From: an uncultured Kordiimonas sp.
GTDB taxonomy: Bacteria; Pseudomonadota; Alphaproteobacteria; Sphingomonadales; Kordiimonadaceae
Assembly: GCA_947492375.1 (NCBI GenBank)
Contig: CANLMI010000003.1
Coordinates: forward strand, 186,001 to 250,000
Direction: 5' to 3'
DNA length: 64,000 bases
Part shown: positions 38,746 to 52,221 of the stretch, piece by piece
Position numbering within the stretch: the stretch's first letter is position 1
Layout: each line of letters starts with the position of its first letter
The notes under the pieces: model-generated
What the model was told of the DNA's origin: nothing
The model's input: only the letters and a program-made list of their open reading frames with translations
The model's database searches: none
Made by a program: the position numbers and the translations under genes

Positions 38746-38775
38746 ATCTTTCCTTCTTATAAAGCCTGCTGTATA

Positions 38776-38993
38776 GCGATGCCTCAGATGGTTCTTCCGG
38801 GCATGCTCGGAAGCTAAGAGGGAACACGGTGCGGCTAATTGATGAAAGCCTAATCCGTGACTGTACCCGCAACTGTAAGTGAGGAGTGCTACTTACATAT
38901 ATCCACTGGAAAATCTTGACCTAATTTTTAGGCAGGTTTTTTTGGGAAGGATTAAGTAGCACAATGATCCACGAAGTCAGGAGACCTGCCATC
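38776..38993 (+). ncRNA. Adenosylcobalamin riboswitch
   Basis: All core elements are in order: AGAGGGAACACGGTG (38817-38831), CTGTACCCGCAACTGTAAG (38861-38879), CCACTGG (38903-38909), GGGAAGG (38944-38950), and the B12 box AGTCAGGAGACCTGCC (38975-38990). It lies upstream of the BtuB-like receptor gene, a classic target. No intrinsic terminator follows, so control is probably at translation, through the leader described at 39024-39144. Confidence 0.95.
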
Positions 38994-39023
38994 ATGTCGC
39001 CCATCTGATGGTCGGGTTCAACC

Positions 39024-39086
39024 ATGCAGAGCGGAATTCCGTGCCGGCGATATTTCGGATTGTGCACGGAGGGCGACGTTTCATGA
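39024..39086 (+). CDS. Putative leader peptide 1 (20 codons)
   Basis: ATG 39024 to TGA 39084, 20 residues (MQSGIPCRRYFGLCTEGDVS). Too short for usual gene calling and without a good ribosome binding site. Its stop overlaps the start of leader 2 as ATGA (39083-39086), the arrangement used for coupled translation. It may be chance; conservation would decide. Confidence 0.35.
   Translation: MQSGIPCRRYFGLCTEGDVS
39038..39070 (+). promoter_or_regulatory. Hairpin A, covers the leader-2 ribosome binding site
   Basis: TCCGTGC (39038-39044) pairs perfectly with GCACGGA (39064-39070), whose end overlaps GGAGGG (39068-39073), the Shine-Dalgarno of leader 2. The loop is 19 nt. The riboswitch core ends 45 nt upstream and may control this stem. 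Confidence 0.5.
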
Positions 39087-39109
39087 CGCAAACTCCACAC
39101 AAAAATTAA
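39083..39109 (+). CDS. Putative leader peptide 2 (8 codons)
   Basis: ATG 39083, TAA 39107, 8 residues (MTQTPHKN). A strong GGAGGG lies 9 nt upstream. The ORF covers AAACTCCAC (39090-39098), the strand that pairs with the ribosome binding site of the receptor gene. A ribosome on this ORF would open that hairpin. Confidence 0.5.
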   Translation: MTQTPHKN

Positions 39110-39139
39110 TAAATACCCCAAATGGGTTCAGTGGAGTTT
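39090..39139 (+). promoter_or_regulatory. Hairpin B, covers the receptor ribosome binding site
   Basis: AAACTCCAC (39090-39098) and GTGGAGTTT (39131-39139) are a perfect 9-bp inverted repeat. The right arm contains GTGGAG, 7 nt before the receptor ATG at 39144. A smaller ACCC/GGGT stem (39115-39127) sits in the loop. Confidence 0.65.
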
Positions 39140-39143
39140 TATA

Positions 39144-41048
39144 ATGTCTAAACTGACAAATAGTTTCAAAATTGCCTTGCTATCCAGTGCTGTTTTTTCG
39201 CCTGTGTCTTTTAATGCCGTGGTGTTTGCAGAAGATGATGTTGAAGAAATTATCGTTTCTGCCAATCGCCGTGAACAGCTAATATCAGAAGTCGGCAAGA
39301 GTATTTCGGTGCTTACTGAAGAAGCGCTCAAACTTCAGCAATTTAACTTTGTTGTTGATGCCCTTCAAACCGTGCCGGGTGTATCTATTAACCAAAACGG
39401 TAGTTTCGGTGGATTGGCGAGCGTTTCTATTCGCGGTAACTCGTCTGACCAAACAGTTATTCTGATTGACGGCGTTCAGGTAAATGATGCCTCAACACCG
39501 GGCGGTGGGTTCAACTTCAGCACAATTGATCCGGTATCAATTAAACGGGTCGAGGTTGTGCGCGGCCCACAGTCAGTACTTTATGGGTCTGATGCCATTG
39601 GCGGTGTTGTAAATATTATAACCAAGTCTGGTGGTGATGGATTTGGCGGAAGTGTTCTTGGTGAATATGGATCGTTTTCAAGCTTTAGAACTGCGGCGAA
39701 TGTTTACGGCGGTGATGATCGGTTTGGCTTTAACCTCGCCGGGAGTTATCTGGATACTGATGGTATTTCAGCGGCTGATAGTGCAGACGGCAATAATGAA
39801 GATGACGGGTTTGAAAACCTAACACTGCGGGCGCGTGTAACGGCACAGTTTAACGATATTTTTGGGGCAGAAATATCATCAAGCTATGTTGATAGCGAAA
39901 ATGAATTTGATAGTTTTGGCCTTCAGAGTAACGGTGATTTCGGCGTTGTTGACGGCGATGAAGTTGGAAATTCAGAAGAGTTCTTAATTGCTGGCCGTGC
40001 GTTTGTTGATTTGCTTGATGGCAGGTTTACAAATACATTTTCGATAGAATATTCCCACATCGACCGTCAAAACCTAACGAATGGTGTTGAAAGTTTTGCG
40101 GCTGACGGTGAAAGATTTAACCTTGATTACTTGGGTGTATTTGAGATCGATGATGCCTGGACCATCTCGGGCGGTGCACAGCGCGAAGTGATTGAAACCA
40201 GCGTAGATGTTGAAGATCTGTCAATCGATAGCGTTTTTGGCCTTTTGTCTTTTGATGGCATTGAAGGCCTTAATCTCTCGGCTGGCATACGTGTTGATGA
40301 TCATGAAACATTTGGTAGCACAACCAACGGGCAGGTTAGTGGTAGTTATACATTTGAGGATACAGGAACACGAATTCTGGCAAGTTGGGGTGAAGGTTTC
40401 AAGGCACCAACAATTTTCCAACTTACTTTCGTTCTAAATGATTTTACAACTGGCGAACCGATTGCTGGTCCAAACCTTGGGCTTAACCCTGAGCGATCTG
40501 ACGCCTTTGAAGTTGGTATTGAACAGGAATTTCTGGACGGGCAATTCCGTGCTGGTGTTACCTATTTTGATCAAGACGTACAGGATTTGATCGAGTTTTC
40601 TTTTGTTGAAGCGTTTGCCAATACAAGTGAAGCACGTTTGCGCGGCCTTGAGTTTACGGTAGAGGGTAGCCTTAGTGAAACACTCAGCTTTACCGGTAAT
40701 TACACTTACACATCAGCACGCGATCTAACGAATGATCGACGCCTTATTCGCAGGCCACGTCATCAGGCCTTTGGCAATATTCAGTGGCAGGTGACTGATA
40801 AACTACAAACAAATGTCTCGCTTACATACAATGGTAATGAAATAGACAATTTCGAATTCGGCACCAATACACCATCTGGTATTGCGGATGATTGGTTCAG
40901 GGTTGATTTGCGTGCTAGTTATCAACTCAATGAGACGATTGAAATTTTTGGCCGTATTGATAACTTGTTCGATGAAGAATATCAGCAGATTTTAGATTTT
41001 GGTACACCGGGCGCGTCGGTATTTGGCGGGGTTCGTGCAACGTTTTAA
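39144..41048 (+). CDS. btuB: TonB-dependent receptor, BtuB-like (cobalamin uptake)
   Basis: 634 residues with a signal peptide (about 1-29). A TonB box (EEIIVSANR, near 34-42) is followed by the plug domain (VDALQTVPGVSINQNG, SIRGNSSDQTVILIDGVQV, VEVVRGPQSVLYGSDAIGG) and a 22-strand-type barrel ending in VRATF with a terminal Phe. Acidic Asp-rich loops in the first barrel part fit calcium binding as in BtuB. The riboswitch upstream and the BtuF/C/D genes 26 nt downstream support cobalamin or corrinoid import. Ribosome binding site GTGGAG, apparently hidden in hairpin B. Confidence 0.93.
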   Translation: MSKLTNSFKIALLSSAVFSPVSFNAVVFAEDDVEEIIVSANRREQLISEVGKSISVLTEEALKLQQFNFVVDALQTVPGVSINQNGSFGGLASVSIRGNSSDQTVILIDGVQVNDASTPGGGFNFSTIDPVSIKRVEVVRGPQSVLYGSDAIGGVVNIITKSGGDGFGGSVLGEYGSFSSFRTAANVYGGDDRFGFNLAGSYLDTDGISAADSADGNNEDDGFENLTLRARVTAQFNDIFGAEISSSYVDSENEFDSFGLQSNGDFGVVDGDEVGNSEEFLIAGRAFVDLLDGRFTNTFSIEYSHIDRQNLTNGVESFAADGERFNLDYLGVFEIDDAWTISGGAQREVIETSVDVEDLSIDSVFGLLSFDGIEGLNLSAGIRVDDHETFGSTTNGQVSGSYTFEDTGTRILASWGEGFKAPTIFQLTFVLNDFTTGEPIAGPNLGLNPERSDAFEVGIEQEFLDGQFRAGVTYFDQDVQDLIEFSFVEAFANTSEARLRGLEFTVEGSLSETLSFTGNYTYTSARDLTNDRRLIRRPRHQAFGNIQWQVTDKLQTNVSLTYNGNEIDNFEFGTNTPSGIADDWFRVDLRASYQLNETIEIFGRIDNLFDEEYQQILDFGTPGASVFGGVRATF

Positions 41049-41074: not shown

Positions 41075-41992
41075 ATGCAACATGACTTGACAATACGAAA
41101 AATATTAAGGGTATCAGCGCATATGGCTGCTGGTGCCTTTGTGGCTGCGGCGGTAACCGCTTCCCTTAAAAGCGATCCTCAGCTAGATAGCTTGAAGACC
41201 GTGGTTTCAACTGATTACTGCGCTGACCAGTATGTTCTGGCACTTGCAAATAACGAGCAGATTAAGGCCGTGTCGTTTGAGGCGTTGGACGTACATTCCT
41301 TCCACCGGGAGCGGGCAAAAACGGTTCCCGCTTTCAGTGGCAGCGCAGAGGAAATATTAGTAAATAATCCTGATGTTGTTGTCTGGTCGTGGCGTGGCAG
41401 TGCGTCCACAAATAAACTTTTTGAGCGATTAGGCAGCGATGTGGCGCGGGTTGATTTTGCGCTTAGCCCCGATGATGTATTCAGAAATGTCAGTAAAATT
41501 GCTGATGCGCTTGGTAGGGCGCGTGAAGGCGAAACCATGATTGCTGAGTACCGTGCGCGTTTGGCAGCGCTTGAGAACTCTAGCAAATCCAATTTGAAAG
41601 CGGCGTATGTAACACCGGGTGGGTTCACTGCAGGGCTTGGTACCTTTGTTGATAATGTCATTAAATTATCGGGGCTTGATACGGTTGCATCCGATATGAA
41701 AATCAATAGCTGGCAAGCTGTGCCTCTTGAGGCGCTGGTTTTAAATCCGCCTGACGTGATTATTGGTAGCTTTTTTGACCTTACATCAGCGCATCGTTCC
41801 AAGTGGGGAATAACGCGGCATCCGCTCTTGAATAAAATGATGCGGGATATTCCAACCATTTTGGTGCCCAGCAAATATCTTTCCTGTAATGGATTCTTTT
41901 TTATCGACGGCGCTGAATATATTCGCCGTGAAGCGCAAAAGCTGAACTTAATTCCGGATGACACATATCCGGTTGTGGAGACAGCAGAATGA
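41075..41992 (+). CDS. btuF: Periplasmic corrinoid-binding protein of ABC transporter (BtuF-like)
   Basis: 305 residues. N-terminal hydrophobic segment (about 14-27) as signal or anchor. Class III periplasmic binding protein: KTVVSTDYCADQYVLAL, then ILVNNPDVVVWSWRG and the rigid connecting helix, LEALVLNPPDVIIGSF in the second lobe. Preceded by GAGAGG. Hands cobalamin or cobinamide to BtuCD. Its stop overlaps the btuC start by 4 nt (ATGA). Confidence 0.9.
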   Translation: MQHDLTIRKILRVSAHMAAGAFVAAAVTASLKSDPQLDSLKTVVSTDYCADQYVLALANNEQIKAVSFEALDVHSFHRERAKTVPAFSGSAEEILVNNPDVVVWSWRGSASTNKLFERLGSDVARVDFALSPDDVFRNVSKIADALGRAREGETMIAEYRARLAALENSSKSNLKAAYVTPGGFTAGLGTFVDNVIKLSGLDTVASDMKINSWQAVPLEALVLNPPDVIIGSFFDLTSAHRSKWGITRHPLLNKMMRDIPTILVPSKYLSCNGFFFIDGAEYIRREAQKLNLIPDDTYPVVETAE

Positions 41993-42996
41993 TAAAGGGC
42001 TTACATCTTACTCAAGTCTATTTGGTTATTGCACTACTTCTCATTTTGATTGGTGTCGGATTAGTTTCGGCAACTTTCGGGCAGGCACCGCTTTCGATTG
42101 CACAAGTGCTTGAGGGGTTATCAGGGCCCGAAGATAGTGGCCTCTCGATCATTATTCGTGAATTGCGCCTCCCGAGGATTATTCTAGGTATGTTTGTGGG
42201 TGCTGCACTTGGTTTTTCAGGCGCCGCGCTTCAAGGGTTACTTAGAAACCCACTTGCGGAGCCCGGCGTTATTGGGGTGACTGCCAGCGCAAGCCTAGGG
42301 GCAGTTGTTGCCATATATTTTGGCCTTACCGCATTCAGTACATATGCTGTTCCGGTTTTCTCTATGTTTGGCGCTTTATTAGCCACAATGGTGGTACTGG
42401 CCGTTGCGGCCCGCGATGCGAGCGTTTTGACGCTTATTCTAACGGGTATCGGGCTTTCAAGTCTTGCGACAGCTCTTATTTCGCTTGTGATGAATTTTGC
42501 ACCAAATCCGATGTCTCTAAGGGATATGGTGCTTTGGATGCTGGGGTCACTTGAAAACCGTACAACAGATGACCTCTCGCTCGCTGTGCCCTTTATTATT
42601 CTTGGGTGGCTTCTGATGATTGGTGTCGGGCAGGGTCTGAACGCGCTTGCTCTTGGTGAGGATGCGGCCACCACTTTGGGGGTTAACCTCAAGCGGCTTC
42701 GTTGGCGCATTATTGCAGGCACAGCGCTTAGTGTCGGGGCGGCGGTTTCAGTGTGTGGCGGTATTGGATTTGTCGGCCTTGTCGTTCCGCATATTGTCCG
42801 CTTTTTTGTTGGTAGCGAACCTCGGCATATTCTTTTGCCAAGTGCAATAGCTGGCGCAATCCTCTTGACGCTTGCAGACATTATAACCCGCTTACCGTTT
42901 GGTAATGGCCAGCTTCAGCTCGGTGTTGTGACAGCATTTATTGGTGCGCCCGTGTTTCTGGTGATTGTGTATAAAACACGGGAGGCCATGCGATGA
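41989..42996 (+). CDS. btuC: ABC transporter permease for corrinoid (BtuC/FecCD family)
   Basis: 335 residues, about ten membrane helices. FecCD family motifs: LRLPRIILGMFVGAALGFSGAALQGLLRNPLAEPGVIG, a mid-protein GIGLSSLATALISL, and the C-terminal GGIGFVGLVVPHIVRF. Overlaps btuF and btuD each by 4 nt, so the three transport genes are coupled. Confidence 0.94.
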   Translation: MIKGLHLTQVYLVIALLLILIGVGLVSATFGQAPLSIAQVLEGLSGPEDSGLSIIIRELRLPRIILGMFVGAALGFSGAALQGLLRNPLAEPGVIGVTASASLGAVVAIYFGLTAFSTYAVPVFSMFGALLATMVVLAVAARDASVLTLILTGIGLSSLATALISLVMNFAPNPMSLRDMVLWMLGSLENRTTDDLSLAVPFIILGWLLMIGVGQGLNALALGEDAATTLGVNLKRLRWRIIAGTALSVGAAVSVCGGIGFVGLVVPHIVRFFVGSEPRHILLPSAIAGAILLTLADIITRLPFGNGQLQLGVVTAFIGAPVFLVIVYKTREAMR

Positions 42997-43805
42997 GCAG
43001 TAAAATTGAGACTGCGGGTCTTGCGCTCCACGGTGTTGGGGTCGCCCTCGGCGGACAACAAATTATTGAAGATATTTCCTTTGATGTGAAGCCGGGTGAA
43101 GTGGTGGGATTAATCGGTGCAAACGGCGCTGGTAAAAGTACAGCGGTGCGAGCTGCCCTTAATCTTGTTAAATTGGCGGCTGGTCATATAGCGGTGGACG
43201 GTGTCGATACTGCATCGCTAAATTTGAAAGAGCGTGCGAAATTGATGTCGTATGTGCCGCAAGGTACGCCTGTGCACTGGCCATTGGTTGCAGAGCGCCT
43301 CGTTGCCCTGGGCCGCACGCCGCATTTAGGCCCGTGGGATAAAATATCGAATGCCGAACAAGAAATTATTAAAGCGGCGATGGTTGAAACTGATACCTGG
43401 CACCTGCGGGAGCGGATTGCGACCACATTGTCAGGCGGCGAAACCGCAAGACTTATGCTTGCACGCACAATCGCTGTTGGTGCGCCCTATATGCTTGCTG
43501 ACGAGCCTACAGCAGCGCTTGATCCGTATCACCGATTGCAGGTGATGGATATTATGCGCGCTCAGGCCAAAGCAGGTACTGGTATTTTAATTGTTCTGCA
43601 TGATCTTAGTTTTGCCCAAAATTACTGCGATAAACTGGTTTTATTGCATAAGGGTAAAATCCTCGATCAAGGAGATACAAGGCAGGTGCTAAGCGATAAG
43701 AACTTGATGGAAGCATTCCAAATCAGTGTCAGCAGGTGGAGTGACGGTAATACAGATTATTTGATGCCAAGCACTGGTGTCACGCCCGCATCTGAGGCGT
43801 CATAA
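42993..43805 (+). CDS. btuD: ABC transporter ATP-binding protein for corrinoid
   Basis: 270 residues. Walker A GANGAGKST, Q loop in YVPQG, signature LSGGE, Walker B YMLADEPTAALD and switch His in LHDLSF. Powers BtuC. The next gene, cobQ, starts 1 nt after its stop, joining uptake and cofactor assembly in one unit. Confidence 0.94.
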   Translation: MSSKIETAGLALHGVGVALGGQQIIEDISFDVKPGEVVGLIGANGAGKSTAVRAALNLVKLAAGHIAVDGVDTASLNLKERAKLMSYVPQGTPVHWPLVAERLVALGRTPHLGPWDKISNAEQEIIKAAMVETDTWHLRERIATTLSGGETARLMLARTIAVGAPYMLADEPTAALDPYHRLQVMDIMRAQAKAGTGILIVLHDLSFAQNYCDKLVLLHKGKILDQGDTRQVLSDKNLMEAFQISVSRWSDGNTDYLMPSTGVTPASEAS

Positions 43806-47316: not shown

Positions 47317-47949
47317 ATGACGGATAAAAATAAAACGGCGATCAGTGCAGAAGACGCCGAAGCCCATAAGGAAAAAATGAAAGCCCAGCAAGGCGAACAC
47401 CGCGCCAAAATGCGTGAGAAAGAAAAGGCCGAACGTGGCCTTCTTTTGGTGCATACTGGGGACGGCAAGGGTAAATCAACCGCTGCATTTGGCACAATTA
47501 TCAGGGCGCTTGGCTGGGGTTGGAATGTGGGTATTGTTCAGTATATCAAAGGCACGTGGAAAACGGGCGAGAAAGAGTTTTTCAAGCGTTTTGATGACCT
47601 CGTCACCATGAAAACTATGGGTGATGGTTTTACATGGGACACACAGGATAAAGAACAGGATATTGCCTCTGCCCGCAAGGCGTGGATTGAGAGCAAAGCA
47701 ATGATGTCAAGCGGGGATTATGATCTTGTGGTTCTCGATGAGCTTAATATCGTTTTACGGAATAATTATCTGAGCGTGGAAGAAGTGCTGGATGGTTTGG
47801 CCGACAGGCATGTTGATACAGATGTTATCGTGACGGGCCGCACGGCACCGCAGGCCCTAATGGATGCAGCTGATTTGGTGACTGAAATGACGATGATCAA
47901 ACATCCGTTCGAGGCTGGTATCAAAGCCAAGCAGGGTATCGATTACTGA
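47317..47949 (+). CDS. cobO: Corrinoid adenosyltransferase (CobO/BtuR)
   Basis: 210 residues. Charged N-terminal helix (Lys/Glu-rich, about 1-40), P-loop HTGDGKGKSTAAFG, FIKGTWKTGEKEFF-type segment and VVLDELNIVL. Adds the 5'-deoxyadenosyl group to cob(I)yrinate or other corrinoids. Last gene of the riboswitch-headed operon; its 3' end overlaps the convergent unknown gene by 7 nt. Confidence 0.95.
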   Translation: MTDKNKTAISAEDAEAHKEKMKAQQGEHRAKMREKEKAERGLLLVHTGDGKGKSTAAFGTIIRALGWGWNVGIVQYIKGTWKTGEKEFFKRFDDLVTMKTMGDGFTWDTQDKEQDIASARKAWIESKAMMSSGDYDLVVLDELNIVLRNNYLSVEEVLDGLADRHVDTDVIVTGRTAPQALMDAADLVTEMTMIKHPFEAGIKAKQGIDY

Positions 47950-48524
47950 TTTTCAGTAGTTTTATGTCGGTATATTTTTATTATTTTTGGATTCTGTGCA
48001 TCCATAAACATGAAAGTCCGTCCATACAGGGCTTTCATACTAAAGGGGTTAGACTTATTTTTCCCTAGTGGAGTTATCAACACTTCACTTGTGGTTAGCG
48101 CGTCTAAGTGTTTTTTCTCAATAATATCAAAGTGCTTCTCAGCGAATGAATTAATCACTACATTGTATGCAGGGTAATTGTACGAAATAACAATATTACC
48201 ATCATCCATAGTGGAAGGTTTAAAGTCTGGATGCGCACTATAAATATTTGACAATGTTTGATATGCGTATTTTTGCGCTTCTGGAAGTGCAAGACCATCA
48301 GGTAAAATAACTACTGTGCCGTTTTCGAAAACTGCGATGTCTACTTTATCATCTAAATAATACACCATACGCTCTAGCACTTGTTCAGGTGAAATTGAAA
48401 AAGATGGTTGCCAAGGTGGGCGAGGTGGAAATTGTTTTTGGGTTGTGTTAGCCGCTAAAATATTCCCTGATAGTATTAGGAACATAATCGTTGCGGTTAT
48501 ATATTTCATGATATTTCTCGACAC
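47943..48524 (-). CDS. Secreted protein of unknown function at the end of the cobalamin operon
   Basis: 193 residues, signal peptide (ILA-AN cleavage near residue 24). The mature part starts with a Pro/Trp-rich stretch (FPPRPPWQPSF), then a mixed alpha/beta domain with no motif I recognise; one Tyr-rich stretch (YNYPAYNVVINSF). It is 16 nt after the bluB stop on the same strand and is more AT-rich than the cob genes. Could be a late insertion or an envelope factor linked to corrinoid use; no function is assigned. Confidence 0.75.
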   Translation of the reverse strand: MSRNIMKYITATIMFLILSGNILAANTTQKQFPPRPPWQPSFSISPEQVLERMVYYLDDKVDIAVFENGTVVILPDGLALPEAQKYAYQTLSNIYSAHPDFKPSTMDDGNIVISYNYPAYNVVINSFAEKHFDIIEKKHLDALTTSEVLITPLGKNKSNPFSMKALYGRTFMFMDAQNPKIIKIYRHKTTENQ

Positions 48525-48540
48525 ATGTTATATGTTTTGA

Positions 48541-49179
48541 TTATCGCTCGATAATGAAATCTTTGAAAGGCAGGCGGTCTTGCCAACCGGATTTAACAAG
48601 TTCGGGCGTGAGTGTTTGTTCTTGTGGATAACCAACACATAAATGACCAATGAATTTATAAGCGGGATTAACATCCATCAAACTGGTCATGGCGTCTGGT
48701 GGCAGGATACTAACCCATCCCATCCCGATACCATGGGCGCGCAAGAGTATCCAAAGCGTATGGATGGCACCGACAACTGAATAAGCTTTGGTCTCGGGCA
48801 TTGTGCGGCTACCGAGGCCGCGCCCAACAGTGGTTTCTATATCGGCGAATACACTTATCTGCACTGGCGCTTCTTTTAACCCAGCGAGCTTGAGTGTTGC
48901 ATATAATTGTGCACTCTCCCCTGCAAACGCGCTGAGTGCCTCGTTATTTGTTTCTTCAAAGAGGGTGGTTAACTGCGTGCGGCGTGTATCATCATCCACC
49001 ATCACAAATCGCCACGGCTGTGAATTACCAACCGATGGTCCTATACAAACAGTTTTCAGGCACTCGAGCACAATCTCGCGGTCAATTGGGTCAGTTTTGA
49101 AATGCCGAACGTCGCGCCGCCATGCAAGCAGGTCATCAAGCGTATTGCGGAAGTCGGCATTAAAGTCAGGTGTAGACAT
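48541..49179 (-). CDS. bluB: 5,6-dimethylbenzimidazole synthase
   Basis: 212 residues from the ATG at 49179 (a start at 49266 would overlap the upstream gene). Flavin-destructase BluB features: DVRHFKTDPID, SVGNSQPWRFVMV, the GRGLGSRTMPET region and GWVSILPPD. It cleaves reduced FMN with oxygen to make the lower ligand dimethylbenzimidazole. Stands between cobC phosphatase and the unknown gene, in the cobP-cobT-cobS operon. Confidence 0.93.
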   Translation of the reverse strand: MSTPDFNADFRNTLDDLLAWRRDVRHFKTDPIDREIVLECLKTVCIGPSVGNSQPWRFVMVDDDTRRTQLTTLFEETNNEALSAFAGESAQLYATLKLAGLKEAPVQISVFADIETTVGRGLGSRTMPETKAYSVVGAIHTLWILLRAHGIGMGWVSILPPDAMTSLMDVNPAYKFIGHLCVGYPQEQTLTPELVKSGWQDRLPFKDFIIER

Positions 49180-49238
49180 TTCGGGGCCTGTATCGGTTTG
49201 TTGACAATAAATTGGTGTAAGTGAACGATAATGTGGAA

Positions 49239-49877
49239 CTATGTGTTTTGGCAAACAAGCCGCCATGCACCACCGTTTCGCATTCCAGTTGTATGTTGCA
49301 TATGACTAAGCGACAAGGTATTTATGCCGAGTGCAAGCGCGGTATCCGGTTCAAGACCAAGCGCGTGCCCGATAAAGGCGCGGATTACCCCTGCGTGGCT
49401 AATAATTATTTTGGATTGGCCGTTTGGTGAGTCACTTTTGGTGGGGGAACTGATCATTTCGTCCATAAAATTTTTTGTCCGTGTCCAAACGTCCATAAAG
49501 CTTTCGCCGTTTTCTGGTTCTGTGCCTGCATCCAGCCACGCCCAGTTATGGCCTTTCATATGGCTGATTTTTTGCCATAGTGCATCGCTTGATAAGCCAA
49601 ACCAATCACCGAAATCTTGTTCAACAAGCCGGGGGTCTTGGGTGATATTGCTTTGGCCGAATTTGTATTCATAAAGCGCATTCGCTGTCATAACTGTGCG
49701 CGTGAGCGGGCTAGTGTACCAATTGGCTTCACTTGGTAAGTGGTTGGCGAGCGATTTTATGCGTTCGCTATCACTTAGGTCTGCCGGCTCATCAGCAGAT
49801 TGATAAAGGCCTGATTTACCACCTACGACGGGTGCATGCCGTATCAAATACCAATCTGTTATGATGGGATCATTCAT
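49239..49877 (-). CDS. Histidine phosphatase family protein, probable alpha-ribazole phosphatase
   Basis: 212 residues, phosphoglycerate mutase fold: catalytic His in YLIRHAPV, SPLTRTVMTA, acidic Glu in VEQDFGDWFG and second His in IISHAGVIRAFIG. Between cobS and bluB, so it probably removes the phosphate of alpha-ribazole phosphate (CobC of enteric bacteria) or of adenosylcobalamin phosphate. Its ATG overlaps the cobS stop by 4 nt. Confidence 0.88.
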   Translation of the reverse strand: MNDPIITDWYLIRHAPVVGGKSGLYQSADEPADLSDSERIKSLANHLPSEANWYTSPLTRTVMTANALYEYKFGQSNITQDPRLVEQDFGDWFGLSSDALWQKISHMKGHNWAWLDAGTEPENGESFMDVWTRTKNFMDEMISSPTKSDSPNGQSKIIISHAGVIRAFIGHALGLEPDTALALGINTLSLSHMQHTTGMRNGGAWRLVCQNT

Positions 49878-51178
49878 AAAATGTTTTTATATGCGATTAA
49901 GAGGGCAATCATAATGGCGGCCTCGCTGACTTGTTGGATAGCGCCTAAAATATCACCTGTGTAGCCATCAACTGATTTCATGGCAATGCGTGAGACAAGG
50001 ATGAGGGCAAGGATAGATGCAATAATAGCGAGTAAAATACTGAGGGGGGACCATAGCAAAGCGAGCGGAATGATACCAAAAAAAAGCGCGGTAATCATAG
50101 CGGCCTGTGGTGGTTCGCCGGCAACTGTACCAAGCCCTTTTTCACGAGCCGGTGGTAATAAATAAAGGGCGAGCACAATCATCGCGCGGCTTAAGGGGCC
50201 TGCTGCAACGATAGCAAGGATTGCTGCCATGTATGAAAATGTATCCAAGGTTTCAACGCGGATCATTATTGAGAGAATTAGGGCAACAGCACCGTATGTA
50301 CCAACGCGGCTATCGCGCATGATCTCGAGTTTTTTATCCTTGGTCATCCCGCCGCCGATACCGTCGGCCATATCGGCTAGGCCATCCTCATGAAAGGCAC
50401 CTGTCGTTAGAACCATTGCCAATACTGCGAGCAAGGCAGCCAACATTGGTGATAGATTTAGATACGCAACAACCGCATAAGCAAACGCACCGATAAACGA
50501 GATAATTAACCCCACAAGTGGATAGGCCCATGCGCTGCGGCTAAGATTAGGGGGCTTGTTGGATATCTTACGCCACGGCACAGGAATACGGGTGAGAAGC
50601 ATCATAGCCGCCGCAATATCCTCAACAATTATGAAGGGATTGAAGCTATTTGTCTGGCCTGAGTTTTCTTGCGATTGCTCGGTTGTTTCTTCTTTTTCAA
50701 TCAGTGCATTTTCTTCGGGCATTGTCAGGCGACCTTCAGGTGAAGGTGGAGATGCTCGATCTGAATTGTCGTTTGTATCGGTTAGTGATTGCGGCGTAGG
50801 CGAAGAGGGCGCTTTCCCAAAGCTTCCTGCTTTCAGCGCTGTTGCTTTCGTTTCAACATGTTTAGGTGCGTTGGTAACACTTGAAGATGTGCCGGACTTT
50901 GGTGTTTCGTTTTGGTTTGTTTGCTTGATTGCAGTATTTTTTACTCTGGTTCTGGCTGGCGCTTTTTTGGCAGTTTTTGTACTTGCTTTAGCAGTTGTTT
51001 TTTTCGGTGTAGCAGGTTTCTTGGCTGCTGCTTTGTTTTTTGCCGCAGTTTCCTTTGCTGTAGTCGAACGCGCAGGCTTTTTAGGCGCTGTTTTCTTTGG
51101 CGCCGCTTTTTTGCGTGCAGCCGGTTTTTTATCCGCTTTTTCAGGAGTGGCTTGATCCGTTTTTTTATCTTCGGCCAT
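49874..51178 (-). CDS. cobS: Cobalamin synthase (CobS/CobV) with histone-H1-like N-terminal extension
   Basis: 434 residues. Residues about 181-434 form the usual CobS membrane enzyme (AAAMMLLTRIPVPWRKI, FHEDGLADMADGIGGGMTKDKKLEIMRDSRVGTYG, several helices), which joins adenosylcobinamide-GDP and alpha-ribazole. Residues 1-90 are Lys/Ala/Pro-rich repeats of the KKPA/KKTA type, 91-150 are Ser/Thr/Pro-rich and 151-175 acidic. GGAGG lies 8 nt before the ATG at 51178, so the long form is translated. The family is normally about 250 residues. The extension would be cytoplasmic and disordered. Confidence 0.92.
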   Translation of the reverse strand: MAEDKKTDQATPEKADKKPAARKKAAPKKTAPKKPARSTTAKETAAKNKAAAKKPATPKKTTAKASTKTAKKAPARTRVKNTAIKQTNQNETPKSGTSSSVTNAPKHVETKATALKAGSFGKAPSSPTPQSLTDTNDNSDRASPPSPEGRLTMPEENALIEKEETTEQSQENSGQTNSFNPFIIVEDIAAAMMLLTRIPVPWRKISNKPPNLSRSAWAYPLVGLIISFIGAFAYAVVAYLNLSPMLAALLAVLAMVLTTGAFHEDGLADMADGIGGGMTKDKKLEIMRDSRVGTYGAVALILSIMIRVETLDTFSYMAAILAIVAAGPLSRAMIVLALYLLPPAREKGLGTVAGEPPQAAMITALFFGIIPLALLWSPLSILLAIIASILALILVSRIAMKSVDGYTGDILGAIQQVSEAAIMIALLIAYKNIL

Positions 51179-51201
51179 GTTGTTACCTCCGTCTTTAAGG
51201 T

Positions 51202-52221
51202 TTAAATTTCAGTGCTTACACCAGCGGCTTCAAAACTCGCCATACCGTTATATGCCGCTAGTGCGGCTTTGATGATTGGAAACGCTGTTGCTGCGCCGCT
51301 TGCCTCACCGAGGCGCATATCCAGATTAAGTAGGGGCTGCATATTAAGGGTATCGCACAGTTTTCTGTGCCCGTGTTCCGCAGATAAATGCGAAATTATA
51401 CAGTGCTGTAATGCCGATTGATTGGATTTTATAAGGGTGCTGGCAGCACTTGTTGCAATAAAACCATCCAGAATAATTGGGACGCTGATTGTGCGTGCCT
51501 TAAGAACTGCCCCTGCAATTGCTGCAAGCTCCCGCCCGCCAAGGAAGCGCAGCAGATCAAAGCTATCGGCGATATTGTCTCGGTGCAGATTGGCAGCATG
51601 TTGCACTAGATTGATTTTATGCTTTAAGGTTTGATTGCTAACGCCTGTACCAGTGCCTACCCAATCAACGGTATTTCCCCCAAAGTTTGCGAGGCAAAGC
51701 GCAGCCGCAACACTGGTATTACCGATACCCATTTCACCGAGTAGAATTATATCACTAGTGTCATCAACTGCGTTGAAGCCAATGTTGATCGCGTCAAGGC
51801 ATTCGGCCTCGCTCATGGCAGGGCCATAGGTGATATCGTTGGTTGGGCTATCGAGGTCAATCGGGATGATATCAAGTGCGATATCTGACATGTTGCATAG
51901 TTGATTGATGGCGGCGCCACCCGCTTCAAAGTTCGCAACCATTTGATTTGTTACATCAGGTGGATAAGCTGAAATACCTTGTGTGGTGATCCCGTGATTG
52001 CCTGCGAAAACGATACATTTAGGGCTGTTGAGTGTTGGTGCGCGCCTCTGCCAGCCCGCTAACCATTCCACCAAATCTTCAAGGCGGCCTAATGAACCTT
52101 GCGGCTTTGTTAGAACGTTTTGACGGGCACGAACAGTTGCAATTGCATCCAAATCTGCGGATGGTAAATCATTAAGCGCATCGATAAACGCTGCTTTGCT
52201 TTGAAATGTCGAGCTGGTCAT
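51202..52221 (-). CDS. cobT: Nicotinate-nucleotide--dimethylbenzimidazole phosphoribosyltransferase
   Basis: 339 residues. KPQGSLGRLEDLVEWLAGW, FAGNHGITTQGISAYPP, GEMGIGNTSVAAAL and the C-terminal LDMRLGEASGAATAFPI with the catalytic Glu. It makes alpha-ribazole phosphate from nicotinate mononucleotide and dimethylbenzimidazole. Overlaps the cobP stop by 4 nt and is followed by cobS after 23 nt. Confidence 0.95.
   Translation of the reverse strand: MTSSTFQSKAAFIDALNDLPSADLDAIATVRARQNVLTKPQGSLGRLEDLVEWLAGWQRRAPTLNSPKCIVFAGNHGITTQGISAYPPDVTNQMVANFEAGGAAINQLCNMSDIALDIIPIDLDSPTNDITYGPAMSEAECLDAINIGFNAVDDTSDIILLGEMGIGNTSVAAALCLANFGGNTVDWVGTGTGVSNQTLKHKINLVQHAANLHRDNIADSFDLLRFLGGRELAAIAGAVLKARTISVPIILDGFIATSAASTLIKSNQSALQHCIISHLSAEHGHRKLCDTLNMQPLLNLDMRLGEASGAATAFPIIKAALAAYNGMASFEAAGVSTEI

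Follow-up and report, generated by a model that had tools for sequence, protein, structure and literature searches.

A cobalamin riboswitch leader predicted to control btuB through a chain of five RNA segments in Kordiimonadaceae

How the binding of cobalamin (B12) to an aptamer is conveyed to the Shine-Dalgarno sequence (SD) of btuB is the question raised by a leader of an uncultured Kordiimonas sp., found within the window, i.e., the whole stretch of 64,000 nucleotides that was analysed. The original prediction, made from this single sequence, was that the signal travels through the translation of two tiny coupled ORFs. The comparative data point instead to a translational cobalamin riboswitch operating through an RNA-only relay of five segments, in which B12 would turn btuB off and no small ORF would take part, a reading to which we assign a probability of roughly 0.77. 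The aptamer and the genes behind it are the following:

38772-39008, + strand: cobalamin riboswitch aptamer (RF00174), 99.8 bits, E 9.7e-24
39144-41048, + strand: btuB, TonB-dependent receptor, the regulated gene (Pfam PF00593, PF07715)
41075-43805, + strand: remainder of the uptake operon, with btuF-like (41075), btuC-like (41989) and btuD-like (42993) genes (PF01497, PF01032, PF00005)

The aptamer score compares with an Rfam gathering score of 31.5, and this single RF00174 match in the window is also the only one in the whole genome. As expected for a kissing loop, L5 (ACCCG, 38865-38869) is complementary to L13 (CGGGU, 39013-39017); an alternative form of these partners, GCCCG with CGGAGC or CGGUGC, was found in relatives G004, G009, G011 and L099. 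The leader is followed by btuB, which opens an operon for B12 uptake that also carries cob genes; these, a cobQ-like one among them, were assigned by eye from the translations and lie downstream of the btuD-like gene. The leader is a predicted cobalamin riboswitch in the context of uptake and cob genes. Beside the operon, on the - strand at 47943-52221, genes resembling bluB, a cobC-type phosphatase, cobS and cobT (also by eye) were observed, without a cobalamin riboswitch of their own.

Downstream of the aptamer core, five segments were identified, each complementary to its neighbours, together with two hairpins located between segments 1 and 2:

38996-39001, + strand: segment 1, GUCGCC, between P1 and P13, partner of segment 2
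39005-39029, + strand: P13 hairpin, CUGAUGGU-CGGGUUCA-ACCAU(g)CAG, with two-sided changes at all 7 pairs
39031-39042, + strand: hairpin b, GCGG-AAUU-CCGU, its 3' arm common to hairpin A (31-leader comparison and folding)
39046-39051, + strand: segment 2, GGCGAU, with segment 1 (predicted ON) or in the 5' side of hairpin A (predicted OFF)
39038-39070, + strand: hairpin A, pairing 2·3
39060-39075, + strand: segment 3, UUGUGCACGGAGGGCG, right arm of hairpin A and putative anti-anti-SD
39087-39102, + strand: segment 4, putative anti-SD, CGCAAACUCCACACAA, with segment 3 (predicted ON) or segment 5 (predicted OFF)
39131-39139, + strand: segment 5, the btuB SD arm, GUGGAGUUU

Both hairpins of the original prediction were located where it had placed them, UCCGUGC (39038-39044) pairing with GCACGGA (39064-39070) in hairpin A, and AAACUCCAC (39090-39098) with segment 5 in hairpin B, which is pairing 4·5. 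To these, a third pairing can be added that the prediction lacked: in the window, UUGUG-CAC-GGAG-G-GCG (39060-39075) pairs with CGC-AAA-CUCC-A-CACAA (39087-39102), and this pairing 3·4 excludes both 2·3 and 4·5. Further upstream, segment 1 is complementary to segment 2, which lies within hairpin A, and 1·2 and 2·3 are likewise mutually exclusive; helix 1·2, P13 and hairpin b together form a predicted three-way junction. From these pairwise exclusions it follows that 1·2 together with 3·4 keeps the SD accessible (ON), whereas 2·3 with 4·5 hides it (OFF).

Some other pairings were seen in the same region. In the minimum free energy (MFE) folds of the window and of its same-genus sister, GGGCGACGU (39071-39079), a second copy of segment 2 confined to this genus, forms a helix of 9 bp with AUGUCGCCC (38994-39002) that encloses P13 and hairpin A. 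This use of segment 1 is compatible with hairpin A and is left unexplained by the relay model. An extension of P1 that would sequester segment 1 when ligand is bound was discarded as a general feature, being seen only in isolated species. The B12-box end GACCUGCC can also form an anti-P13 pairing with GGUCGGGUU; this was set aside too, for several MFE folds include it but it looks weak on inspection in L093-L097, and the invariance of the B12 box puts it beyond covariation testing.

The comparison set comprised 31 btuB leaders, mostly from Kordiimonadaceae, plus close relatives (the window is G000). After the B12 box, all 31 leaders carry segment 1, P13 with L13 complementary to L5, hairpin b and segments 2 to 5, with family variants such as CGG...CCG for hairpin b, GGCGAC/U or a variant for segment 2, and segment 4 placed in the linker. 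As for P13 and 1·2, two-sided changes were found in the columns of hairpin A. Relatives G005, G014, G020, G021, G022 and G024 possess more than one cobalamin riboswitch; the second ones (L026, L011, L005, L047, L049 and L051), some of which precede metE-like genes, have a short platform, and neither segment 1 nor segment 2 was recognised in it.

Conservation of the downstream pairings was assessed by partner swap, in which the duplex energy of arms taken from one genome was compared with that of arms exchanged between genomes, over 5000 permutations. Own partners surpassed swapped ones in 2·3 (-19.4 vs -16.3 kcal/mol, z -7.2), 3·4 (-15.3 vs -11.8 kcal/mol, z -7.2) and 4·5 (-12.4 vs -8.7 kcal/mol, z -7.6), with 0/5000 permutations in each case, although these z values, obtained by taking leaders as independent, are overstated among close relatives and stand at about -6 after dereplication. 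The results persist when near-duplicates or hand-placed anti-SDs are left out, or when the whole linker is used; indeed, with the whole linker replacing the hand-placed anti-SD windows, 3·4 still reached z -5.8. Among the controls, 1·3, 2·4, 3·5 and 2·5 gave no signal in the 31 leaders, and 1·4 and 1·5 gave a weak one (z -2.6 and -2.7; -1.9 and -1.4 dereplicated), which means that weak swap signals are not specific.

Individual leaders illustrate these results. In G008, segment 3, anti-SD and SD have changed together with the pairings kept, and in G005, G007 and L097 segments 3, 4 and 5 have changed and still pair, their 3·4 duplexes being long and unusual in sequence; pairing 4·5 is weak in L093, G020 and G003b/G010b. 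Thus, the paired substitutions sought in both stems were found, hairpins A and B being conserved with compensatory changes. At the level of sequence, the leader has the two elements of an anti-SD/anti-anti-SD platform, namely an SD matched by an anti-SD (4·5) and an anti-SD matched by an upstream anti-anti-SD (3·4). A reading in which P13 and hairpin B alone matter and hairpin A, 1·2 and 3·4 are by-products has in its favour the strongest covariation, that of hairpin B, and the use of P13, P14 and an anti-SD by Escherichia coli btuB (PMC11162775), yet it is very unlikely: the covariation of 2·3 and 3·4 is about as strong as that of 4·5 and is missing from most non-neighbour controls, and the reading offers no path by which P13 could act on hairpin B, which lies 60 nt further downstream.

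Helix 1·2 required a wider sample. In the 31 leaders, 96% of its cells are paired, with two-sided changes at 3/6 pairs, and it shows little variation within the family (swap z -2.0, 139/5000). When leaders of the class were chosen by hairpin b alone, compensated forms of 1·2 were found (GUUGCC/GGUAAC, GUCACC/GGUGAC and GUCGUU/AACGAC; swap z -2.6, 57/10000, p 0.006). The signal belongs to this hairpin-b subset: a blind test of 1·2 over all cobalamin riboswitches of the class gave none, because many of them carry a different short platform.

The MFE fold of 39005-39160 contains both hairpins A and B with z = -1.9 against dinucleotide shuffles, and single-sequence folding is therefore only weakly above chance. 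When a growing chain was folded, 1·2 with P13 and b was the MFE structure until segment 3 emerged, after which hairpin A took over. By calculation, OFF is more stable than ON in 28/31 leaders, and by 12 kcal/mol in the window, so that ON must be held kinetically.

A mechanism can be proposed from these alternatives. Without B12, segments 1 and 2 would pair once transcribed, closing the three-way junction with P13 and hairpin b; segment 2 would thereby be kept from hairpin A, 3·4 would form and take up the anti-SD, and the btuB SD would be free. With B12 bound, P13 would dock on L5 as a kissing loop and segment 1, as the linker between P1 and P13, would be stretched by docking and unable to close on segment 2. 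Docking would thus probably break 1·2, allowing 2·3 (hairpin A) to form, segment 4 to be released and 4·5 (hairpin B) to hide the SD, with btuB off.

The sign of the response is suggested by relatives with fewer segments. Shorter, three-segment platforms occur in other Alphaproteobacteria, Caulobacter btuB included. In other families of the order (L009, L028, L031 and L068), the GGCGAC partner shares bases with the SD and the start codon of the next gene (GGAGUCGCCAAUG being the segment 3 of L009 that overlaps the ribosome binding site, RBS); as segment 3 is the RBS itself in L009, L028 and L031, 2·3 must be OFF there. In Caulobacter, a reporter carrying the btuB 5'UTR is shut off by B12 at translation (PMC6538847), and the sequence given there contains GUCGUU, AACGAC and GUCGUU as segments 1, 2 and 3. 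In its MFE fold, 2·3 is formed and the SD is paired with the arm of hairpin b. A nine-base sequence, GUCGUUCAU, is present in two copies in this 5'UTR, one being segment 1 and the other segment 3, which immediately precedes the SD; this would suit an origin of segment 3 by copying of segment 1. If segments 4 and 5 were added to such a platform, the signal would be inverted twice and so keep its sign; by analogy with the three-segment relatives and Caulobacter btuB, B12 would therefore be the OFF signal in the window leader as well.

The same five segments could also work with the opposite sign, the kissing loop stabilising the 1·2 three-way junction and B12 turning btuB on. The joint conservation of P13, b and 1·2, which might act as a single docked unit, and the fact that OFF is the calculated ground state without ligand would both suit this possibility. 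Nevertheless, B12-uptake genes are normally repressed by B12. An activating corrinoid riboswitch is known, in a transcriptional system (PMC10653944), whereas the btuB leader of Caulobacter, which shares segments 1-3, is repressed by B12 (PMC6538847); activation by B12 is accordingly considered improbable.

The relay with B12 as OFF signal leaves no role for the two small ORFs on which the original prediction relied:

39024-39086, + strand: ORF1, 20 codons, MQSGIPCRRYFGLCTEGDVS, ATG 39024 to TGA 39086, judged accidental
39083-39109, + strand: ORF2, 8 codons, MTQTPHKN, ATG 39083 to TAA 39109, judged accidental

Both ORFs, with their ATGA overlap, are present in the window as described, and their arrangement invites the reading in which P13 governs their translation and the ribosomes open up hairpin B, making the btuB SD accessible. 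ORF2 has a GGAGG 10 nt upstream of its start and spans the left arm of hairpin B, and the ORF1 AUG (39024-39026) lies inside the P13 kissing-loop stem (39005-39029), where it consists of the last bases of the right arm ACCAU, A and U being paired, plus the bulged G39026. The idea also has precedent in the riboswitch-controlled uORF of Mycobacterium tuberculosis ppe2, which overlaps the next start as AUGA, a logic of AUGA reinitiation proven there, the uORF having been tested by start and stop mutants (PMC11260477), and in synthetic ribo-attenuators, including a btuB version, in which a ribosome that has translated an ORF under riboswitch control unfolds the hairpin covering the following RBS (PMC5496857).

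In contrast to ppe2, the uORFs of the window are not conserved and an RNA-only link exists; the ribo-attenuators are engineered, and such a way of working is unsupported for this leader. In the same-genus sister (G001, L032; one genome compared), the leader is nearly identical, with P13, hairpin A and hairpin B kept, and yet both starts read ATA; the A stands at the unpaired base 39026 and thus the ORF1 start is lost with the P13 stem intact. None of the other 29 leaders has an ATG at either start, and a GGRG of hairpin A followed by an ATG at SD distance is found in 1/31 leaders, that of the window. A ribosome is also unnecessary to link hairpin A to hairpin B, as 3·4 already joins them. Of the indirect control originally proposed, the hairpin over the SD, with its compensatory changes, has survived, and the relay through small ORFs, whose starts are absent in relatives, has not; a leader-peptide mechanism is now very unlikely.

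In dinucleotide shuffles of the leader, at least one ATG uORF of at least 5 codons appeared in 63% and two in 27%, and an ATGA-coupled pair in 1.7%, a figure uncorrected for after-the-fact choice; the layout is therefore unusual without being strong evidence, having been picked after the fact. ORF2 is moreover the tail of a 33-codon frame opening at ATG 39008 in the P13 left arm (39008-39109). This longer uORF was considered and rejected, being found in the window, the sister and G020 only; the similar frame of G020 has 39 codons and a start that is not conserved in other leaders. A conserved N-terminal extension of BtuB was discarded as well, on a rough estimate, the btuB frame being open far upstream in about 10 leaders, the window not among them. 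Both small ORFs are almost certainly accidental, and a species-specific role for ORF2 in the window, where its SD is fair, is unlikely. The case serves as a caution that, in a structured leader, a tidy uORF layout can arise as a by-product of the stems.

Taken more broadly, the data incline us, with some reserve, towards a platform shared by alphaproteobacterial btuB leaders and not described in the literature searched, in which 1·2, enclosing P13, competes with 2·3, and which in Kordiimonadaceae and near relatives would have grown into a five-segment, twice-inverting and sign-keeping relay. If so, segment 3 became an anti-anti-SD in the latter group and two segments were gained. Comparative sequence alone provides here the full set of alternative pairings from the P13-adjacent strand down to the SD, and it predicts compensatory mutants step by step.

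In the open-access literature searched, no five-segment relay was found. How ligand binding reaches the expression platform of corrinoid riboswitches is stated as unknown in PMC10653944. The Priestia megaterium metE riboswitch of that report resembles the window leader in its kissing loop and mutually exclusive platform hairpins, and differs from it in using a terminator/antiterminator, with P13 itself engaged in the alternative pairing. The Caulobacter crescentus btuB 5'UTR (PMC6538847) shares segments 1-3, P13 and hairpin b in the same order, as well as repression of reporter translation by B12, and no structure is proposed for it in the available portion of that report; unlike in the window, its predicted OFF hairpin 2·3 would take the SD through the b arm, and segments 4 and 5 are lacking. 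This short, experimentally active form makes the platform testable. In E. coli btuB (PMC11162775), a translational OFF switch with a P13 kissing loop also precedes btuB, an anti-SD hides the SD and an anti-anti-SD pairing frees it. The window leader departs from it in its five chained segments and in having the P13-enclosing 1·2, hairpin b and hairpin A before the SD hairpin. Anti-SD/anti-anti-SD switching is already known from E. coli, and the predicted five-segment chain is a variation on it.
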